Source: Salsipaludibacter albus
Lineage (GTDB): Bacteria > Actinomycetota > Nitriliruptoria > Nitriliruptorales > Nitriliruptoraceae
Reading direction: 5' to 3'
DNA length: 64,000 nt
NCBI RefSeq assembly: GCF_019798055.1
Contig: NZ_JAHOPH010000006.1
Span: forward strand, 1-64,000
Every line of letters begins with the position of its first letter. Position 1 is the stretch's first letter. The notes below the pieces were generated by a model. That model was not told the DNA's origin, did not search any database, and worked only from the letters and a program-made list of their open reading frames with translations. Made by a program: the position numbers and the translations under genes. Below are positions 40,064-46,660 of the stretch, in pieces.

Positions 40064-41611
40064 TCAGTGGCGGAAGTGGCGGCGACCGGTCAGGACCATG
40101 ACGAGGTCGTGCTCGTCGGCCGCACCCACCACCTCGTCGTCGCGGACCGAGCCGCCGGGCTGGACGATGCCGGCGATCCCTGCCGCGGCGGCGACGTCGA
40201 TGTTGTCGCGGAAGGGGAAGAACGCGTCAGAGGCCAGCACGGCCCCGACGTGGCGATCGCCGGACTTCTCGACGGCCAGGCGGACGGCGTCGACCCGACT
40301 CATCTGGCCGGCGCCCACGCCGACAACCGCGCGGTCCTTCACCAGCACGATCGCGTTGGACTTGACGTGCTTGGCTACGGTCCAGGCGAACCGCAGGTCG
40401 GCGAGCATCACGTCGTCGGGTCGCGCCGCGCTCGCCACCTCCCAGTCGGCGAACGGCTCCGCGCCGACGTCACCGTCCTGGACCAGCAGGCCACCGTCGA
40501 TCGCCCGCAGGGTCCGGGTCGCGATGGGCGGGCTGACCGGCGCCTCGAGGATCCGCAGGTTCTTCTTGGCCGTGAGGACCTCCAGCGCACCGTCGGCGTA
40601 CCCGGGGGCGATGACGACCTCGGTGAACACCTCGGCGACCTGGGCGGCGGTGGTGGCATCGATCGGCCGGTTCGCGGCGACGATCCCCCCGAAGGCCGAC
40701 ACCGGGTCCCCGGCCAGCGCGCGCTCGTGCGCGGTCGGGAGGTCGTCGGCGACCGCGAGTCCGGCGGGGTTGGTGTGCTTGATGATCGCGACACAGGGCT
40801 CGTCGAAGTCACACGCCATGGCCCACGCCGCGTCCGTGTCAACGTAGTTGTTGTACGACAGCTCCTTGCCGTGCAGCTGTCGCGCCGCGCCCAGCCCGAC
40901 GGGCTCGGTCTGCGCGTCGACGTAGAACGCGGCCCCCTGGTGCGGGTTCTCCCCGTAGCGCAGCGGCGGCCCGAGCCGCTCGAGGGCCACGTGGAGCTGC
41001 TCGGGGTGGTCCTCGTCACGCCGGAACCAGTTGCTGATCGCCGCGTCGTAGGTGGCGACGTGCCCGAACGCCTTGGTGGCCAGGACCCGGCGGGCCGCGG
41101 CGGGCAGCCCGTCGTGGCGATCGAGCAGCTCGACCAGCGGCGCGTAGTCGTCGGGGTCGACGACGATCCCGACCCCGGCGAAGTTCTTCGCGGCGGCGCG
41201 CAGCATCGTGGGCCCGCCGATGTCGATCATCTCGATGATGTCGTCGTCGGGAGCGCCGGACGCGACCGCGTCGTCGAACGGGTAGAGGTTGGACACCACC
41301 AGGTCGATGGGTGCGACGCCCAGCTCGTCGAGCTCGTCGAGGTGGGCGGGCCTGGACCGGTCGGCCAGCAGCCCGGCGTGGATCTTCGGGTGCAGCGTCT
41401 TGACCCGCCCGTCGAGGCACTCGGGGAAGCCGGTGACGTCGGCGACCTCGGTGACGGGCACGTCGGCGTCCCGGATGACCCCGGCGGTCGAGCCGGTGGA
41501 CACGATCTCCACGCCGTGGCGGTGCAGTCCGCGGGCGAGCTCGACGAGCCCGGTCTTGTCGTAGACGCTGACGAGGGCGCGGCGGACGGCGGTGACGTCG
41601 GTGGCAGGCAT
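40064..41611 (-). CDS. purH: bifunctional AICAR formyltransferase/IMP cyclohydrolase
   Basis: A 515-residue enzyme catalysing the last two steps of IMP synthesis. The N-terminal IMP cyclohydrolase domain (SVYDKTGLVELA, STGSTAGVIRD, GRVKTLHPKIHAG) is followed by the AICARFT domain with RYGENPHQGAA, KELSYNNYVDTDAA and IIKHTNPAGLA with the catalytic Lys-His. The C-terminal SDAFFPFRDN motif and ending GRRHFRH are as usual. Between purN (47 bp upstream) and folD. Confidence 0.97.
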   Translation of the reverse strand: MPATDVTAVRRALVSVYDKTGLVELARGLHRHGVEIVSTGSTAGVIRDADVPVTEVADVTGFPECLDGRVKTLHPKIHAGLLADRSRPAHLDELDELGVAPIDLVVSNLYPFDDAVASGAPDDDIIEMIDIGGPTMLRAAAKNFAGVGIVVDPDDYAPLVELLDRHDGLPAAARRVLATKAFGHVATYDAAISNWFRRDEDHPEQLHVALERLGPPLRYGENPHQGAAFYVDAQTEPVGLGAARQLHGKELSYNNYVDTDAAWAMACDFDEPCVAIIKHTNPAGLAVADDLPTAHERALAGDPVSAFGGIVAANRPIDATTAAQVAEVFTEVVIAPGYADGALEVLTAKKNLRILEAPVSPPIATRTLRAIDGGLLVQDGDVGAEPFADWEVASAARPDDVMLADLRFAWTVAKHVKSNAIVLVKDRAVVGVGAGQMSRVDAVRLAVEKSGDRHVGAVLASDAFFPFRDNIDVAAAAGIAGIVQPGGSVRDDEVVGAADEHDLVMVLTGRRHFRH

Positions 41612-42921: not shown

Positions 42922-43006
42922 GCGGGTGTGCTGGAACTGGCAGACAGAGGGGCCTTAAAAGCCCTCGGGCCTCGCGCCCGTGTGGGTTCGAATCCCACCA
43001 CCCGCA
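42922..43006 (+). tRNA. tRNA-Leu (anticodon TAA)
   Basis: An 85-nt class II tRNA. The acceptor GCGGGTG (42922-42928) pairs with CACCCGC (42999-43005), discriminator A at 43006. The anticodon stem-loop GGGGC-CTTAAAA-GCCCT places TAA at 42956-42958. A long variable arm (GGGC...GCCC) and the T arm GTGGG-TTCGAAT-CCCAC complete the cloverleaf. CCA is not encoded. Confidence 0.97.
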
Positions 43007-43033
43007 CGAGCAGTTCGCTCCACCGCAGTCGGA

Positions 43034-43210
43034 TCAGCGGCGGCTGCGCAGGACCACCAGCACGCCCGCCACGGCGACGAGTGGACCCAGCAGGGCCCAC
43101 AGCGGCTCGCCGGTCATGGAGCTGCCACCGATCCACCCGATCCCCTGGCCGGTCCAGACCAGCCCGACCAGGACCAGCAGGACACCGAGCACGAGACGCA
43201 TGCGGTTCAC
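43034..43210 (-). CDS. small two-helix membrane protein
   Basis: A 58-residue protein with two hydrophobic segments (LVLGVLLVLVGLVWTGQGIGW and ALLGPLVAVAGVLVVL) joined by GGSSMTGEPLW, a loop I recall in many actinobacterial small membrane proteins of unknown role. The GTG at 43210 overlaps the stop of the NUDIX-epimerase gene by 4 bp and has GGAGG 4 nt upstream; the ATG at 43201 is the alternative. Too short for most gene lists. Confidence 0.6.
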   Translation of the reverse strand: MNRMRLVLGVLLVLVGLVWTGQGIGWIGGSSMTGEPLWALLGPLVAVAGVLVVLRSRR

Positions 43211-44775
43211 GGGGCCTCCGGGGCGGCATCGGGGCCGGGCGGCGTCACGGTCGGGCTGGTCCGGGTCGTGGCGCCCTGGTCGGGAGTCCCGGCGTCCGAG
43301 GCCACCCCGTCGTCGGGGACCAGTCGCACGAGCGGACCGTCGACGAACAGGTCGGCCGGGACCTCGACGCCGACCTCGGCCCACAGCTGGGGCGGGATGC
43401 CGAGGTCGGCCAGGTAGAGGTCGCCGACGTAGGGCTGGACGATCCGAGGCAGCAGCCCGGTCTTGGGGAGGCCGATCGTGACGGTCACGTCCGCGGTGAC
43501 CCCCGGCCCGCGCAGCCCGACGTCGCCACCCAGTCCGGACGGCAGGTCGACCGCCACCACGGGGCGGTCGTGGCGCCGCAGCCACTCCCCCAGGACCTCG
43601 GGCCCGTCGCGCAGGGGCGGACTGGCCCCGATGCCGACCATGGCGTCCACCACCACGTCCCCCGGGTCCAGCGCGGCGGGGTCGACGTCGGCGACCTCGA
43701 GCACGGGGACGTCGAGGCGGTCGAGGAGGCTGACCTGTCCCGGGACGGCGACCCGCGCCTCCCGGCCCACCACGACGACCCGCACGTCACAGCCGGCCGC
43801 GACCAGCAGCCGGGCCGCGACCAGTCCGGCGGCACCGTTGCCACCCGACCCCGCCAGCACCACCACGTCGGCCCCGCCCAGGCTGGCGGGGGCGAGCAGG
43901 CGCCGCACCGCGTGCGCGACGCCCCGGCCGGCCTGCTCCGACATCGCCTCCAGCGGCCAACCGGCAGCCTGCGCCGCAGCGTCCAATGCCCGCACGGTCG
44001 CGACGTCGACCGTGGGGACGGTGGACATGGCGCGGCTGGGCAGGTCCCCGTCGAGCATCCGCCGTGGCGCGGTGCGCGGGATGGACTCCCACGGCCGCTC
44101 GTGGTGGTCCTCGTCCAGGTCCGCAGGGTCGACCCCACGACGCCAGCCCGGCACGACCACCTCGAGCAGTTGGGCCACGGTGATGGCCGTCGCACCCCAC
44201 AGGAGGTCTCCGCTGGGCAGCTCCCAGGCCCAGGTGGCGCCGCCGGCCGACAGGGGCACGGCGCGCCACGAGGCGTCGTCGACCAGGTGGCGCAACGGCA
44301 CCCGCAGGATCTTGTCGACCTCCCACGGATTGCGGTCCAGGGGATGCGGGGAGGTCCATCGCGCCAGCACCGGCGCGACCCAGAAGCGCGACGGCGGGAT
44401 GTAGAAGACCGGCCCGGGACCGACCACCTGGGCGGTCGCGGGGTCGAGGTCGACCTCCTCGTTCGCCTCGCGCAGGGCGGCCTCGACGATCGTCTCGCCG
44501 TCGTCGACCCGTCCGCCCGGGAACGACACCTGCCCGGGGTGCGAGCGCATGTCGGCGCGGCGACGGGTCAGGACGAGCTCTGGTCCGTTGTCGGTGTCGG
44601 CCACGAGGACCAGCACGGCCCCGACCTTCGCCGACGGCGGCACGGTGACGTCGTCGGCCGGGATCGAGGCCAGGGCAGCGGCCGCCCGGTCCCAGAACCG
44701 CTCCGGGTCGGCCAGCGCCGCGGTCACGTGGGCCGGCTCCGTGGACGACCCGACCTTGCCGGCGTCGCTGGTCAT
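43207..44775 (-). CDS. fusion of NUDIX hydrolase (CoA-diphosphatase type) and NAD(P)H-hydrate epimerase
   Basis: A 522-residue fusion. Residues 1-230 are a NUDIX hydrolase: RRRADMRSHPGQVSFPGGR is the CoA-diphosphatase (NudL-type) lead-in and GGRVDDGETIVEAALREANEEVDL contains the NUDIX box. Residues 255-480 are a YjeF_N-type epimerase: SEQAGRGVAHAV, VVLAGSGGNGAAGLVAARLL and VVAVDLPSGLGGD. YjeF_N enzymes epimerise damaged NADHX. The C-terminal 40 residues are disordered. Both halves are cofactor-repair or clean-up activities; no NnrD dehydratase domain is present. The next small gene overlaps it by 4 bp. Confidence 0.85.
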   Translation of the reverse strand: MTSDAGKVGSSTEPAHVTAALADPERFWDRAAAALASIPADDVTVPPSAKVGAVLVLVADTDNGPELVLTRRRADMRSHPGQVSFPGGRVDDGETIVEAALREANEEVDLDPATAQVVGPGPVFYIPPSRFWVAPVLARWTSPHPLDRNPWEVDKILRVPLRHLVDDASWRAVPLSAGGATWAWELPSGDLLWGATAITVAQLLEVVVPGWRRGVDPADLDEDHHERPWESIPRTAPRRMLDGDLPSRAMSTVPTVDVATVRALDAAAQAAGWPLEAMSEQAGRGVAHAVRRLLAPASLGGADVVVLAGSGGNGAAGLVAARLLVAAGCDVRVVVVGREARVAVPGQVSLLDRLDVPVLEVADVDPAALDPGDVVVDAMVGIGASPPLRDGPEVLGEWLRRHDRPVVAVDLPSGLGGDVGLRGPGVTADVTVTIGLPKTGLLPRIVQPYVGDLYLADLGIPPQLWAEVGVEVPADLFVDGPLVRLVPDDGVASDAGTPDQGATTRTSPTVTPPGPDAAPEAP

Positions 44776-44872
44776 GCCGACCCGCCGCAGCGACGTCGCA
44801 TGGTTCCTCCCGTGCTGGCTCGACCCCGCGCCACGCTACTGCCCCGACCGGTCGACCTCGCTCGACCTCCCC

Positions 44873-44909
44873 ATGGCGTTCGACCCCGACGGCGCGCGGA
44901 CCGAACGCC
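44873..44909. repeat. tandem hairpin repeat B, copy 1
   Basis: A 37-bp unit whose GGCGTTCG ... CGAACGCC ends form a perfect 8-bp stem. A second copy with 3 mismatches begins 62 bp later. It lies between the ppx stop and the NUDIX-fusion start, both genes leftward. Confidence 0.65.
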
Positions 44910-44934: not shown

Positions 44935-44971
44935 ATGGCGTTCCACCCCGACAGCACGCGGACCGAACGCC
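44935..44971. repeat. tandem hairpin repeat B, copy 2
   Basis: Second 37-bp unit, stem GGCGTTCC ... CGAACGCC (7 of 8 pairs). It starts 50 bp beyond the ppx stop. The copy-to-copy spacing and place relative to neighbouring genes mirror repeat pair A at 28 kb, though the sequences differ. Confidence 0.65.
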
Positions 44972-45020: not shown

Positions 45021-45950
45021 TCAGTCCACGGCGCCGGCGGCGACGCCGTCGAGGACGTCGGCGATCGACACGGTGACGCGCTCGACGCCCAGCAGGTCCA
45101 CGAGGGTCGCGAGGACCAGGGCGCCGGCGGCGATCACGTCGGCGCGACCCGGTGCGAGCGGTCCGAGCTCCAGGCGGGCCTGGCTGGATCGACCGAGCAG
45201 CTCGAGGGCCAGCTCGGTCACCCGCTCGGCCGGCAGGACGTGTCCGTGCAGTTCGTCGAGGTCGTCGGTGCCGCGGTCGAGCGCAGCCAGCGTCGTGGCG
45301 GTCCCGGCCACGGCCACCAGGTCGGCGACCGCGGAGCTCGCGGTCGCCAGCGGCACGTCGATGGCGGCCAGGCCCGAGGCCAGCGTCTCGCCCGCATCAC
45401 GTCGCGCGGCGGCGACCTGGGCAGCCGTCGGCGGATCGGCGTGCAGGTGGCGTTCGGTGAGGCGGACCGACCCCAGTTGGCACGACACCGGTCGGGGTGG
45501 TGGTCCGTCGACGACCAGCTCGGTCGAGCCGCCACCGATGTCGACCATCAGCGTGGGGCGGGCGAGGTCGAGCGCGCTGGTGGCGCCGACGAAGGAGGCC
45601 GTGGCCTCCTGTTCGCCCGCGAGCACCCGCGCATCGACCCCGGCGACCTCGCGGATCCCGTCGAAGAACCGCTCGCGGTCGTCGGCGTCACGCACCGCGG
45701 AGGTGGCGATGACGACGACGCGGTCGTCGGGCACGCCCGCCTCGCGCCACCGGTCGGCGTAGCGCGCCACGACCTCCAGGCAGTGGGCCAGGCGGTCGTC
45801 GTCCAGGTGTCCGGTCGCGTCGACGCCACGTCCCAGCCGGGTGATCTCGGCGTCGCGGTGGACGTCACGACCGTCGGGCGACAGCCACAGCCTGGTCGAG
45901 TTCGACCCGCAGTCGACGACGGCGGGGTGCCGGGGAAGGTCAGGCGTCAT
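45021..45950 (-). CDS. ppx: Ppx/GppA family exopolyphosphatase
   Basis: A 309-residue ASKHA-fold phosphatase. VDCGSNSTRLWL is the first phosphate-binding motif, VVIATSAVRDADDRERF the second, LAGEQEATASFVGA the third and LMVDIGGGSTELV the central nucleotide motif. It corresponds by context to mycobacterial Ppx2 (Rv1026): DUF501 and FtsB/enolase genes are upstream in the same order. Substrate: polyphosphate or (p)ppGpp-type guanosine phosphates. ATG start overlaps DUF501 by 4 bp. Confidence 0.93.
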   Translation of the reverse strand: MTPDLPRHPAVVDCGSNSTRLWLSPDGRDVHRDAEITRLGRGVDATGHLDDDRLAHCLEVVARYADRWREAGVPDDRVVVIATSAVRDADDRERFFDGIREVAGVDARVLAGEQEATASFVGATSALDLARPTLMVDIGGGSTELVVDGPPPRPVSCQLGSVRLTERHLHADPPTAAQVAAARRDAGETLASGLAAIDVPLATASSAVADLVAVAGTATTLAALDRGTDDLDELHGHVLPAERVTELALELLGRSSQARLELGPLAPGRADVIAAGALVLATLVDLLGVERVTVSIADVLDGVAAGAVD

Positions 45951-46660
45951 CGTCGGTCCGCCACTGGGTCGGGCTCCGCTGCCTCGGCCCGGCGGAGCTG
46001 GGCCACCACCGGATGGTCGTCGAGGTCCTCGGGGGTCACGCACGGTCCCTGGCACGGCACGGGCCGGGCTGCCTCGACCGTCCAGCACCCGACCGGCGAG
46101 TCGTTGGTCGCCAGCTCGTGGCCGGCGTGGACGTGCAGGCACTTGACGTACTTCGGGGACCCACCCGCGTACGGGTCGCCGGGCAGTTCACCACCGAGCT
46201 CGTCGCGGAAGTCGCGGTAGCGCTCCTGCGCGGCGGCGTGCTCGGTGGCGAAGTCGACGTCGTCGGGTCGGTCACCGTCGAGTCGCTCGTTGATCCCGAC
46301 CATGGAGCGATCGGCCTCGAGCTGACCGATCCGCGACCGCAGGGCGGGACAGGTCTGCCAGAAGACGGTCGGGAAGGGGGTGCCGTCGGGCAGGCGCGGG
46401 TCGACGCGGACGACCGTCGGCAGGCCCCAGGCACAACGGTGGACGACCGCAGAGCGGCCGCGCGCGGGGCGACCGATCTGGACCGACACGACCGCGCGCT
46501 CGTCGGCATCGGCGAACGGCCGGGAGGCGGCGCGGTCGTAGGAGGCCGCAGGATCGGGGACGACGGGGTCGTCCGGGGAGGCGCCCGGGGCGATGAGCCC
46601 GTCGTCGCGACCCAACTCGCCCAGGGCGTGGTCGGCATCACGCCGTGGTCCATCAGACAC
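45947..46660 (-). CDS. DUF501 domain protein
   Basis: A 237-residue protein. VSVQIGRPARGRSAVVHRC near residue 60 and FPTVFWQTCPALRSRIGQLE near residue 95 are the DUF501 core, followed by CLHVHAGHELA with conserved Cys-His and a C-terminal GPCVTPED. The spacing of these cysteines and histidines could bind metal. Syntenic with Rv1025, directly before ppx2. Function unknown. GTG start. Confidence 0.9.
   Translation of the reverse strand: MSDGPRRDADHALGELGRDDGLIAPGASPDDPVVPDPAASYDRAASRPFADADERAVVSVQIGRPARGRSAVVHRCAWGLPTVVRVDPRLPDGTPFPTVFWQTCPALRSRIGQLEADRSMVGINERLDGDRPDDVDFATEHAAAQERYRDFRDELGGELPGDPYAGGSPKYVKCLHVHAGHELATNDSPVGCWTVEAARPVPCQGPCVTPEDLDDHPVVAQLRRAEAAEPDPVADRR

Follow-up and report, generated by a model that had tools for sequence, protein, structure and literature searches.

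A CoA-diphosphatase-type NUDIX domain fused to a YjeF_N domain that lacks key epimerase residues in most members of one actinomycetotal class

The window, by which we mean the whole analysed stretch of 64,000 nucleotides from Salsipaludibacter albus (contig NZ_JAHOPH010000006.1), holds on its minus strand a single gene for a NUDIX domain and a YjeF_N domain. The open frame extends from an ATG at 44775 to a stop codon finishing at 43207 and encodes 522 amino acids; coordinates and length had been given correctly in a preliminary description. A Pfam scan of the protein places NUDIX at residues 53-164 (E = 2.1e-15; 57.4 bits against a cut-off of 21.1) and YjeF_N at residues 277-440 (E = 4.2e-31; 108.6 bits against a cut-off of 24.9). 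The features of the locus are as follows.

43207..44775, minus strand: NUDIX-YjeF_N fusion gene, 522 amino acids (from the open frame, Pfam and the starts of relatives)
44284..44619, minus strand: NUDIX domain, CoA-diphosphatase type (place of the PF00293 match)
44041..44112, minus strand: linker, about residues 222-245, with a conserved P-W (from the alignment of fusions)
43456..43947, minus strand: YjeF_N domain (Pfam match and aligned residues)
45021..45986, minus strand: Ppx/GppA phosphatase, the upstream neighbour (stretch scanned, start provisional)
44875-44909 and 44937-44971, minus strand: a 35-bp repeat that resembles a hairpin, present twice in the interval from ppx to the fusion gene (GGCGTTCG...GAACGCC)

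The position of the start codon deserves a comment. In four of seven relatives (L020, L021, L023 and L035) a GTG or ATG is found seven codons ahead of the residue that aligns with residue 25 of the window protein, and the window itself has a GTG at 44727 (residue 17), eight codons before residue 25. Judging from this comparison, translation may begin at GTG 44727, which would give a protein of about 506 amino acids. Just upstream, on the same strand, a nine-codon open frame (MRRRCGGSA, 44772-44801) stands right after a GGAGGA, and its TGA overlaps the ATG at 44775; this frame is not evident in the inspected upstream sequence of the congener. The 35-bp repeat has eight matches in the genome at up to three mismatches, none being obtained with a reversed control pattern, and it looks like a dispersed element of the REP type.

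The distribution of the fusion was studied with a profile, A1, built from 14 fusions, in 66 genomes of the class. Both domains occur together in 50 of these genomes, 49 times as a single A1 row and once (G409) as two rows, yet with one frame of 426 amino acids holding both domains. Note that the 49 include a fusion with an in-frame TGA (G032), and that 35 of the 36 fusions tabulated below are encoded in a single frame. Five class genomes possess NUDIX only (G029, G031, G036, G396 and G410), seven yielded partial matches that end at most 38 bases from a contig end (G011, G018, G020, G034, G039, G406 and G411; the one in G034 could equally be a solo protein), and among the A1 matches of the remaining four (G026, G407, G413 and G414) the fusion is absent. 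The P and W of the linker are invariant in the 14-row alignment (columns P204/W205), where they correspond to P228 and W229 in the window protein. We have thus rejected a frameshift or assembly artefact, the first of which the preliminary description had raised as the possible origin of the merged frame: the joining of both domains in 50 of 66 class genomes and the invariant P-W of the linker exclude it, and the presence of NUDIX and YjeF_N in one frame is established, as a fusion that is old within its class.

The neighbourhood is conserved as well. In 27 of the 29 loci examined, among them all five NUDIX-only loci, an upstream ppx is encoded on the same strand, separated from the gene by anything between less than 0.1 and about 3 kb. 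Beyond ppx, in the window as elsewhere, follow DUF501, an S1 gene, divIC and eno, as far as the fetched stretch extends, and eno is within reach in ten of the 29 loci. The agreement in gene order with respect to ppx lends support to the orthology of the NUDIX-only genes and the fusion genes.

Outside the class, the phylum sample comprised 396 genomes, of which at least 39 belong to the class and thus at most 357 do not; the four best candidates per genome were scored, and 45 genomes gave no match. Among the matches listed (at least 118.6 bits) no two-domain row came from outside the class, in line with the earlier statement that the architecture is unusual. The best non-class row among these matches scored 149.4 bits and was NUDIX only, as compared with at least 418.6 bits for the two-domain rows, and no NUDIX row listed there extended past model position 246 of 450, the row that got so far running through stops. 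Of 72,556 plasmid records 63 matched, none with 80% query coverage, and viral contigs contained 14 weak Nudix relatives. A partial search of genome contigs from other phyla, based on peptide patterns specific to the window protein so that near relatives may be masked, returned 11 loci. The window YjeF_N matches nine of them, eight with a dehydratase domain and one (L010) as YjeF_N alone, and no row was obtained for L013 and L014.

In the titles and abstract openings of the open-licence papers retrieved, no description of a NUDIX-YjeF_N fusion was found. The available part of a gene fusion survey (PMC4921024) gave no match for YjeF or epimerase, the word YjeF is absent from the accessible portion of a review of the Nudix clan (PMC5389931), and YjeF_N, according to the text available from PMC5938422, is known to be fused to the dehydratase and, in plants, to a B6 oxidase. 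The fusion is widespread in one class and without a description in the literature searched; with respect to the wide occurrence of an already described fusion, which the preliminary description had considered, the first half applies within this class and the second does not.

The NUDIX half has its Nudix box at residues 88-110, preceded within residues 69-88 by a T-x-R...G-x3-FPGG motif. It shares the box with the Nudix CoA diphosphatases DR1184, NUDT7 and NudL and resembles them in the upstream T-x-R...HPGQ-x-S-FPGG motif, and its best PDB match is the CoA pyrophosphatase 1nqy (4.3e-16), which we take to be DR1184. The CoA-diphosphatase flavour assigned to this half from the sequence is borne out by this closest solved relative. 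The core GX5EX7REUXEE is intact in all 40 class sequences, the window protein (Ala at U) included, where U was read loosely as L, I, V, M, F, A, C or T and G032 was left out of the count. We take the upstream motif of the NudL/NUDT7 type (UPF0035) to be T-x-R-[SA]-x3-R-x3-G-x3-FPGG. The corresponding framework T-x-R...G-x3-F-x-G-G is found in 38 of the 40 sequences, 34 of which differ from this motif by an Arg at the Ser/Ala position. A further difference from the known enzymes is the C-terminal YjeF_N domain, and with 80.1 bits against 134 the NUDIX half lies below the NCBIfam cut-off for CoA pyrophosphatase, for which reason we term it CoA-diphosphatase-type and not NudL. The genome of the window has 11 NUDIX matches. 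A search of it with profile A1, at E values up to 1e-20, retrieved the fusion and Nnr only, and the other ten NUDIX matches are consequently less similar to that of the fusion than this level.

The YjeF_N half scores 106 bits with the NCBIfam model yjeF_nterm (TIGR00197; cut-off 88.6) and matches TM0922 (2ax3) most closely in the PDB. With the NAD(P)HX epimerase of Nnr (TM0922, E. coli YjeF, NAXE/AIBP) it shares the domain, the fold at low model confidence, and the residues Asp377 (VVDA), DLPSG (410-414) and Lys438, and NGAAG (313-317) takes the place of NGGDG. In order to place these residues we aligned 90 YjeF_N domains: 36 fusions, 35 Nnr controls (27 from the class and eight gammaproteobacterial) and 19 solo proteins. 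The 36 fusions were drawn from the 50 two-domain genomes, with G032 included and the other 14 left out, and loci repeating a genome already represented were used once.

As evidenced by this alignment, the Asp of NGGDG occurs in none of the 36 fusions, in all 35 Nnr proteins and in a single solo protein (L087), which by its residues and its place in the tree is a cut Nnr. The catalytic Lys (K192 of E. coli YjeF) is retained in 33 of 35 Nnr proteins and in all 19 solo proteins, but in only five of the fusions: those of the window (G000), its congener (G001), G002, G005 and G025. Asp377 is present in 36 of 36 fusions, as are two residues (P and G) of the DLPSG motif, and the domain is highly divergent in families f3-f5. 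For 22 genomes both an Nnr and a fusion were tabulated; 18 of them have the Lys in Nnr only, three in both and one (G001) in the fusion only. In the accessible text of PMC5938422, the exchange of the catalytic Lys of E. coli YjeF for Ala removes at least 95% of the epimerase activity. Loss of the NGGDG Asp alone is no proof of inactivity, since the Asp-less solo proteins keep the Lys (18 of 18, with L087 set aside). The Thr of GTG is distributed like the Asp (35 Nnr, one solo, no fusion). Since GFS stands at this site in mouse AIBP, we do not count the loss of the Thr as evidence of inactivity.

The dehydratase NnrD had been described as missing. This holds for the fusion protein, in which the Pfam scan gives no PF01256 domain, and unlike the epimerase of Nnr the fused YjeF_N thus has no dehydratase attached; it does not hold for the genome, where the one PF01256 (Carb_kinase) match lies on contig C23 in a frame of 531 amino acids with an ordinary YjeF_N domain that retains Asp, Thr and Lys. 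The genome thus does have the dehydratase, the fusion is a second YjeF_N in it, and the idea that the fusion might be the sole epimerase was rejected. The preliminary description had further proposed a combined cofactor-repair enzyme. In such an enzyme NUDIX would clear damaged CoA or nucleotides and YjeF_N would epimerise NAD(P)HX, and in the genus of the window it could serve as a backup or replacement of the Nnr epimerase. The retained Lys438, Asp377 and DLPSG, which the congener has as well, and the score above the NCBIfam epimerase cut-off speak for it, as does the congener, in which the fusion is the only one of two PF03853 matches with the Lys, its Nnr (L084) having a Met at this position. 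This Met may stem from an error in the draft sequence or reflect a swap of roles. The two domains also evolve at a similar rate in the pair from this genus (dN/dS 0.37 and 0.39). On the other side stand the absence of the Asp from 36 and of the Lys from 31 of the 36 fusions, as against 0 and 2 of the 35 Nnr proteins, the complete Nnr in the same genome and the NUDIX-only orthologues nested among the fusions, so that we consider a bifunctional enzyme unlikely. For the genus of the window, which keeps K438, epimerase activity would be possible, if rather doubtful, on the basis of the residues.

The history of the fusion was addressed with two trees; G032 was kept in the YjeF_N table and tree and left out of the NUDIX tree. 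In the unrooted YjeF_N tree the fused domains form one clade (support 100/99), which points to a single origin of the fusion and argues against gains on several occasions. The NUDIX-only orthologues, in turn, are nested among the fusions in the NUDIX tree (45 rows; root support 80/69), where no fewer than three changes between the two states are needed to account for the branches with good support. On the simplest reading this suggests that YjeF_N was lost at least three times.

Such losses raise the question whether YjeF_N is a decaying passenger without function. Consistent with decay, dN/dS is higher for YjeF_N than for NUDIX in four of six pairs and about equal in two, the fusion of G032 has an in-frame stop, and the divergence in f3-f5 is very large. 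Nevertheless, by a simple Nei-Gojobori count dN/dS of YjeF_N is 0.15-0.39 in all six pairs, and for the four pairs made up of Lys-less members alone the range is 0.15-0.24. These values imply purifying selection and hence a domain kept for something. With Asp377 and two residues of DLPSG (P, G) conserved throughout, and one frame in 35 of 36 fusions, a mere passenger heading for loss is very improbable.

A different origin might be sought in the solo YjeF_N proteins, a group that spans the phylum (L050-L054, L095-L104), mostly has NGGGG and GY in place of GT, keeps the Lys and possibly has a separate activity, as its residues hint. The fused domain could derive from this group together with a non-epimerase activity, for example one linked to B6 or a flavoenzyme, that the Lys-less members would have lost. 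The fusion of G002 has the solo signature at three sites (Gly, Tyr, Lys), and loss of the NGGDG Asp is common to both groups. The solo frame of G025 (L052) directly follows a gene for a pyridine-nucleotide-disulphide oxidoreductase, its first start codon lying 120 bases on, and in G006 (L051) such a gene lies within 1.5 kb of the solo YjeF_N. A second, B6-linked function of the epimerase has been proposed in the available part of PMC5938422. The unrooted tree does not put the fusions within the solo group, however, and 31 of the 36 have lost the Lys that the solo proteins keep; we thus deem a solo-group origin with such an activity quite improbable.

The reading that we prefer, with a probability of about 0.6, is that of a CoA-diphosphatase-type Nudix hydrolase with a mostly non-catalytic accessory YjeF_N domain similar to that of EDC3. 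The NUDIX domain would be the working enzyme and probably cleaves CoA or its derivatives into 3',5'-ADP and a 4'-phosphopantetheine product, a substrate suggested by the resemblance to the known enzymes. YjeF_N, which retains conserved pieces of the nucleotide pocket while the epimerase residues are gone in most members, would most likely dimerise the enzyme, bind a nucleotide, or both, and thereby tune the NUDIX half. Repair of NAD(P)HX would be left to the separate Nnr, in a presumed division of labour.

Human EDC3 provides the analogy. In a profile alignment its YjeF-N domain shows the same two losses as most fusions, NGGDG being replaced by KGAQG and LGLP not being followed by a Lys, and in the accessible portion of PMC8984151 it is a dimerisation domain of a protein that activates the Nudix decapping enzyme Dcp2. 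Unlike the fusion, EDC3 (3d3k) is found in eukaryotes, is a protein distinct from its Nudix enzyme and also contains LSm and FDF parts. The Pfam scan of the fusion protein yields NUDIX and YjeF_N only above cut-off, with no LSm domain, and the likeness is confined to YjeF_N, where sequence similarity to the window protein is weak (2.7e-4). A one-chain bacterial counterpart of Dcp2-Edc3, in which a dead YjeF_N dimerises a CoA-type Nudix enzyme whose substrate is RNA capped with dephospho-CoA or NAD, or in which the sensing of pyridine nucleotides sets CoA turnover, can be imagined as a distant speculation. A YjeF_N domain with a partner other than the dehydratase is also known from plants, where the epimerase of an epimerase-PPOX fusion is listed as biochemically validated (available text of PMC5938422); the plant partner is an oxidase of B6 salvage, whereas here it is a Nudix domain.

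A structure model of the fusion protein, built on 16 alignment rows, is poor, with a mean pLDDT of 54.3, and at this confidence its best PDB matches are yeast YNL200c, TM0922, mouse AIBP and human EDC3, in agreement with the sequence comparison; no Nudix structure is among the best 50 PDB matches listed for it. The class offers a natural series on one Nudix enzyme, from a Lys-bearing through a Lys-less to an absent YjeF_N, which allows to test whether this domain has a role other than epimerisation, a point raised for E. coli YjeF (PMC5938422, in the part available) and seen in EDC3. With 31 of the 36 tabulated members lacking the catalytic Lys, automatic annotation may mislabel these fusions as NAD(P)H-hydrate epimerases.

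Finally, the 3' end of the fusion gene overlaps a small hydrophobic open frame (43034-43231, minus strand) of which the congener has a copy (L115) with 66% identity. At E = 1e-4 none of the other 28 loci gave a match to it, and it has no Pfam match. Directly downstream, on the opposite strand, lies a tRNA-Leu(TAA) (42922-43007, plus strand). ARAGORN also calls a tRNA-Arg at 40344-40424 (plus strand), which falls within the purH frame and is probably false.
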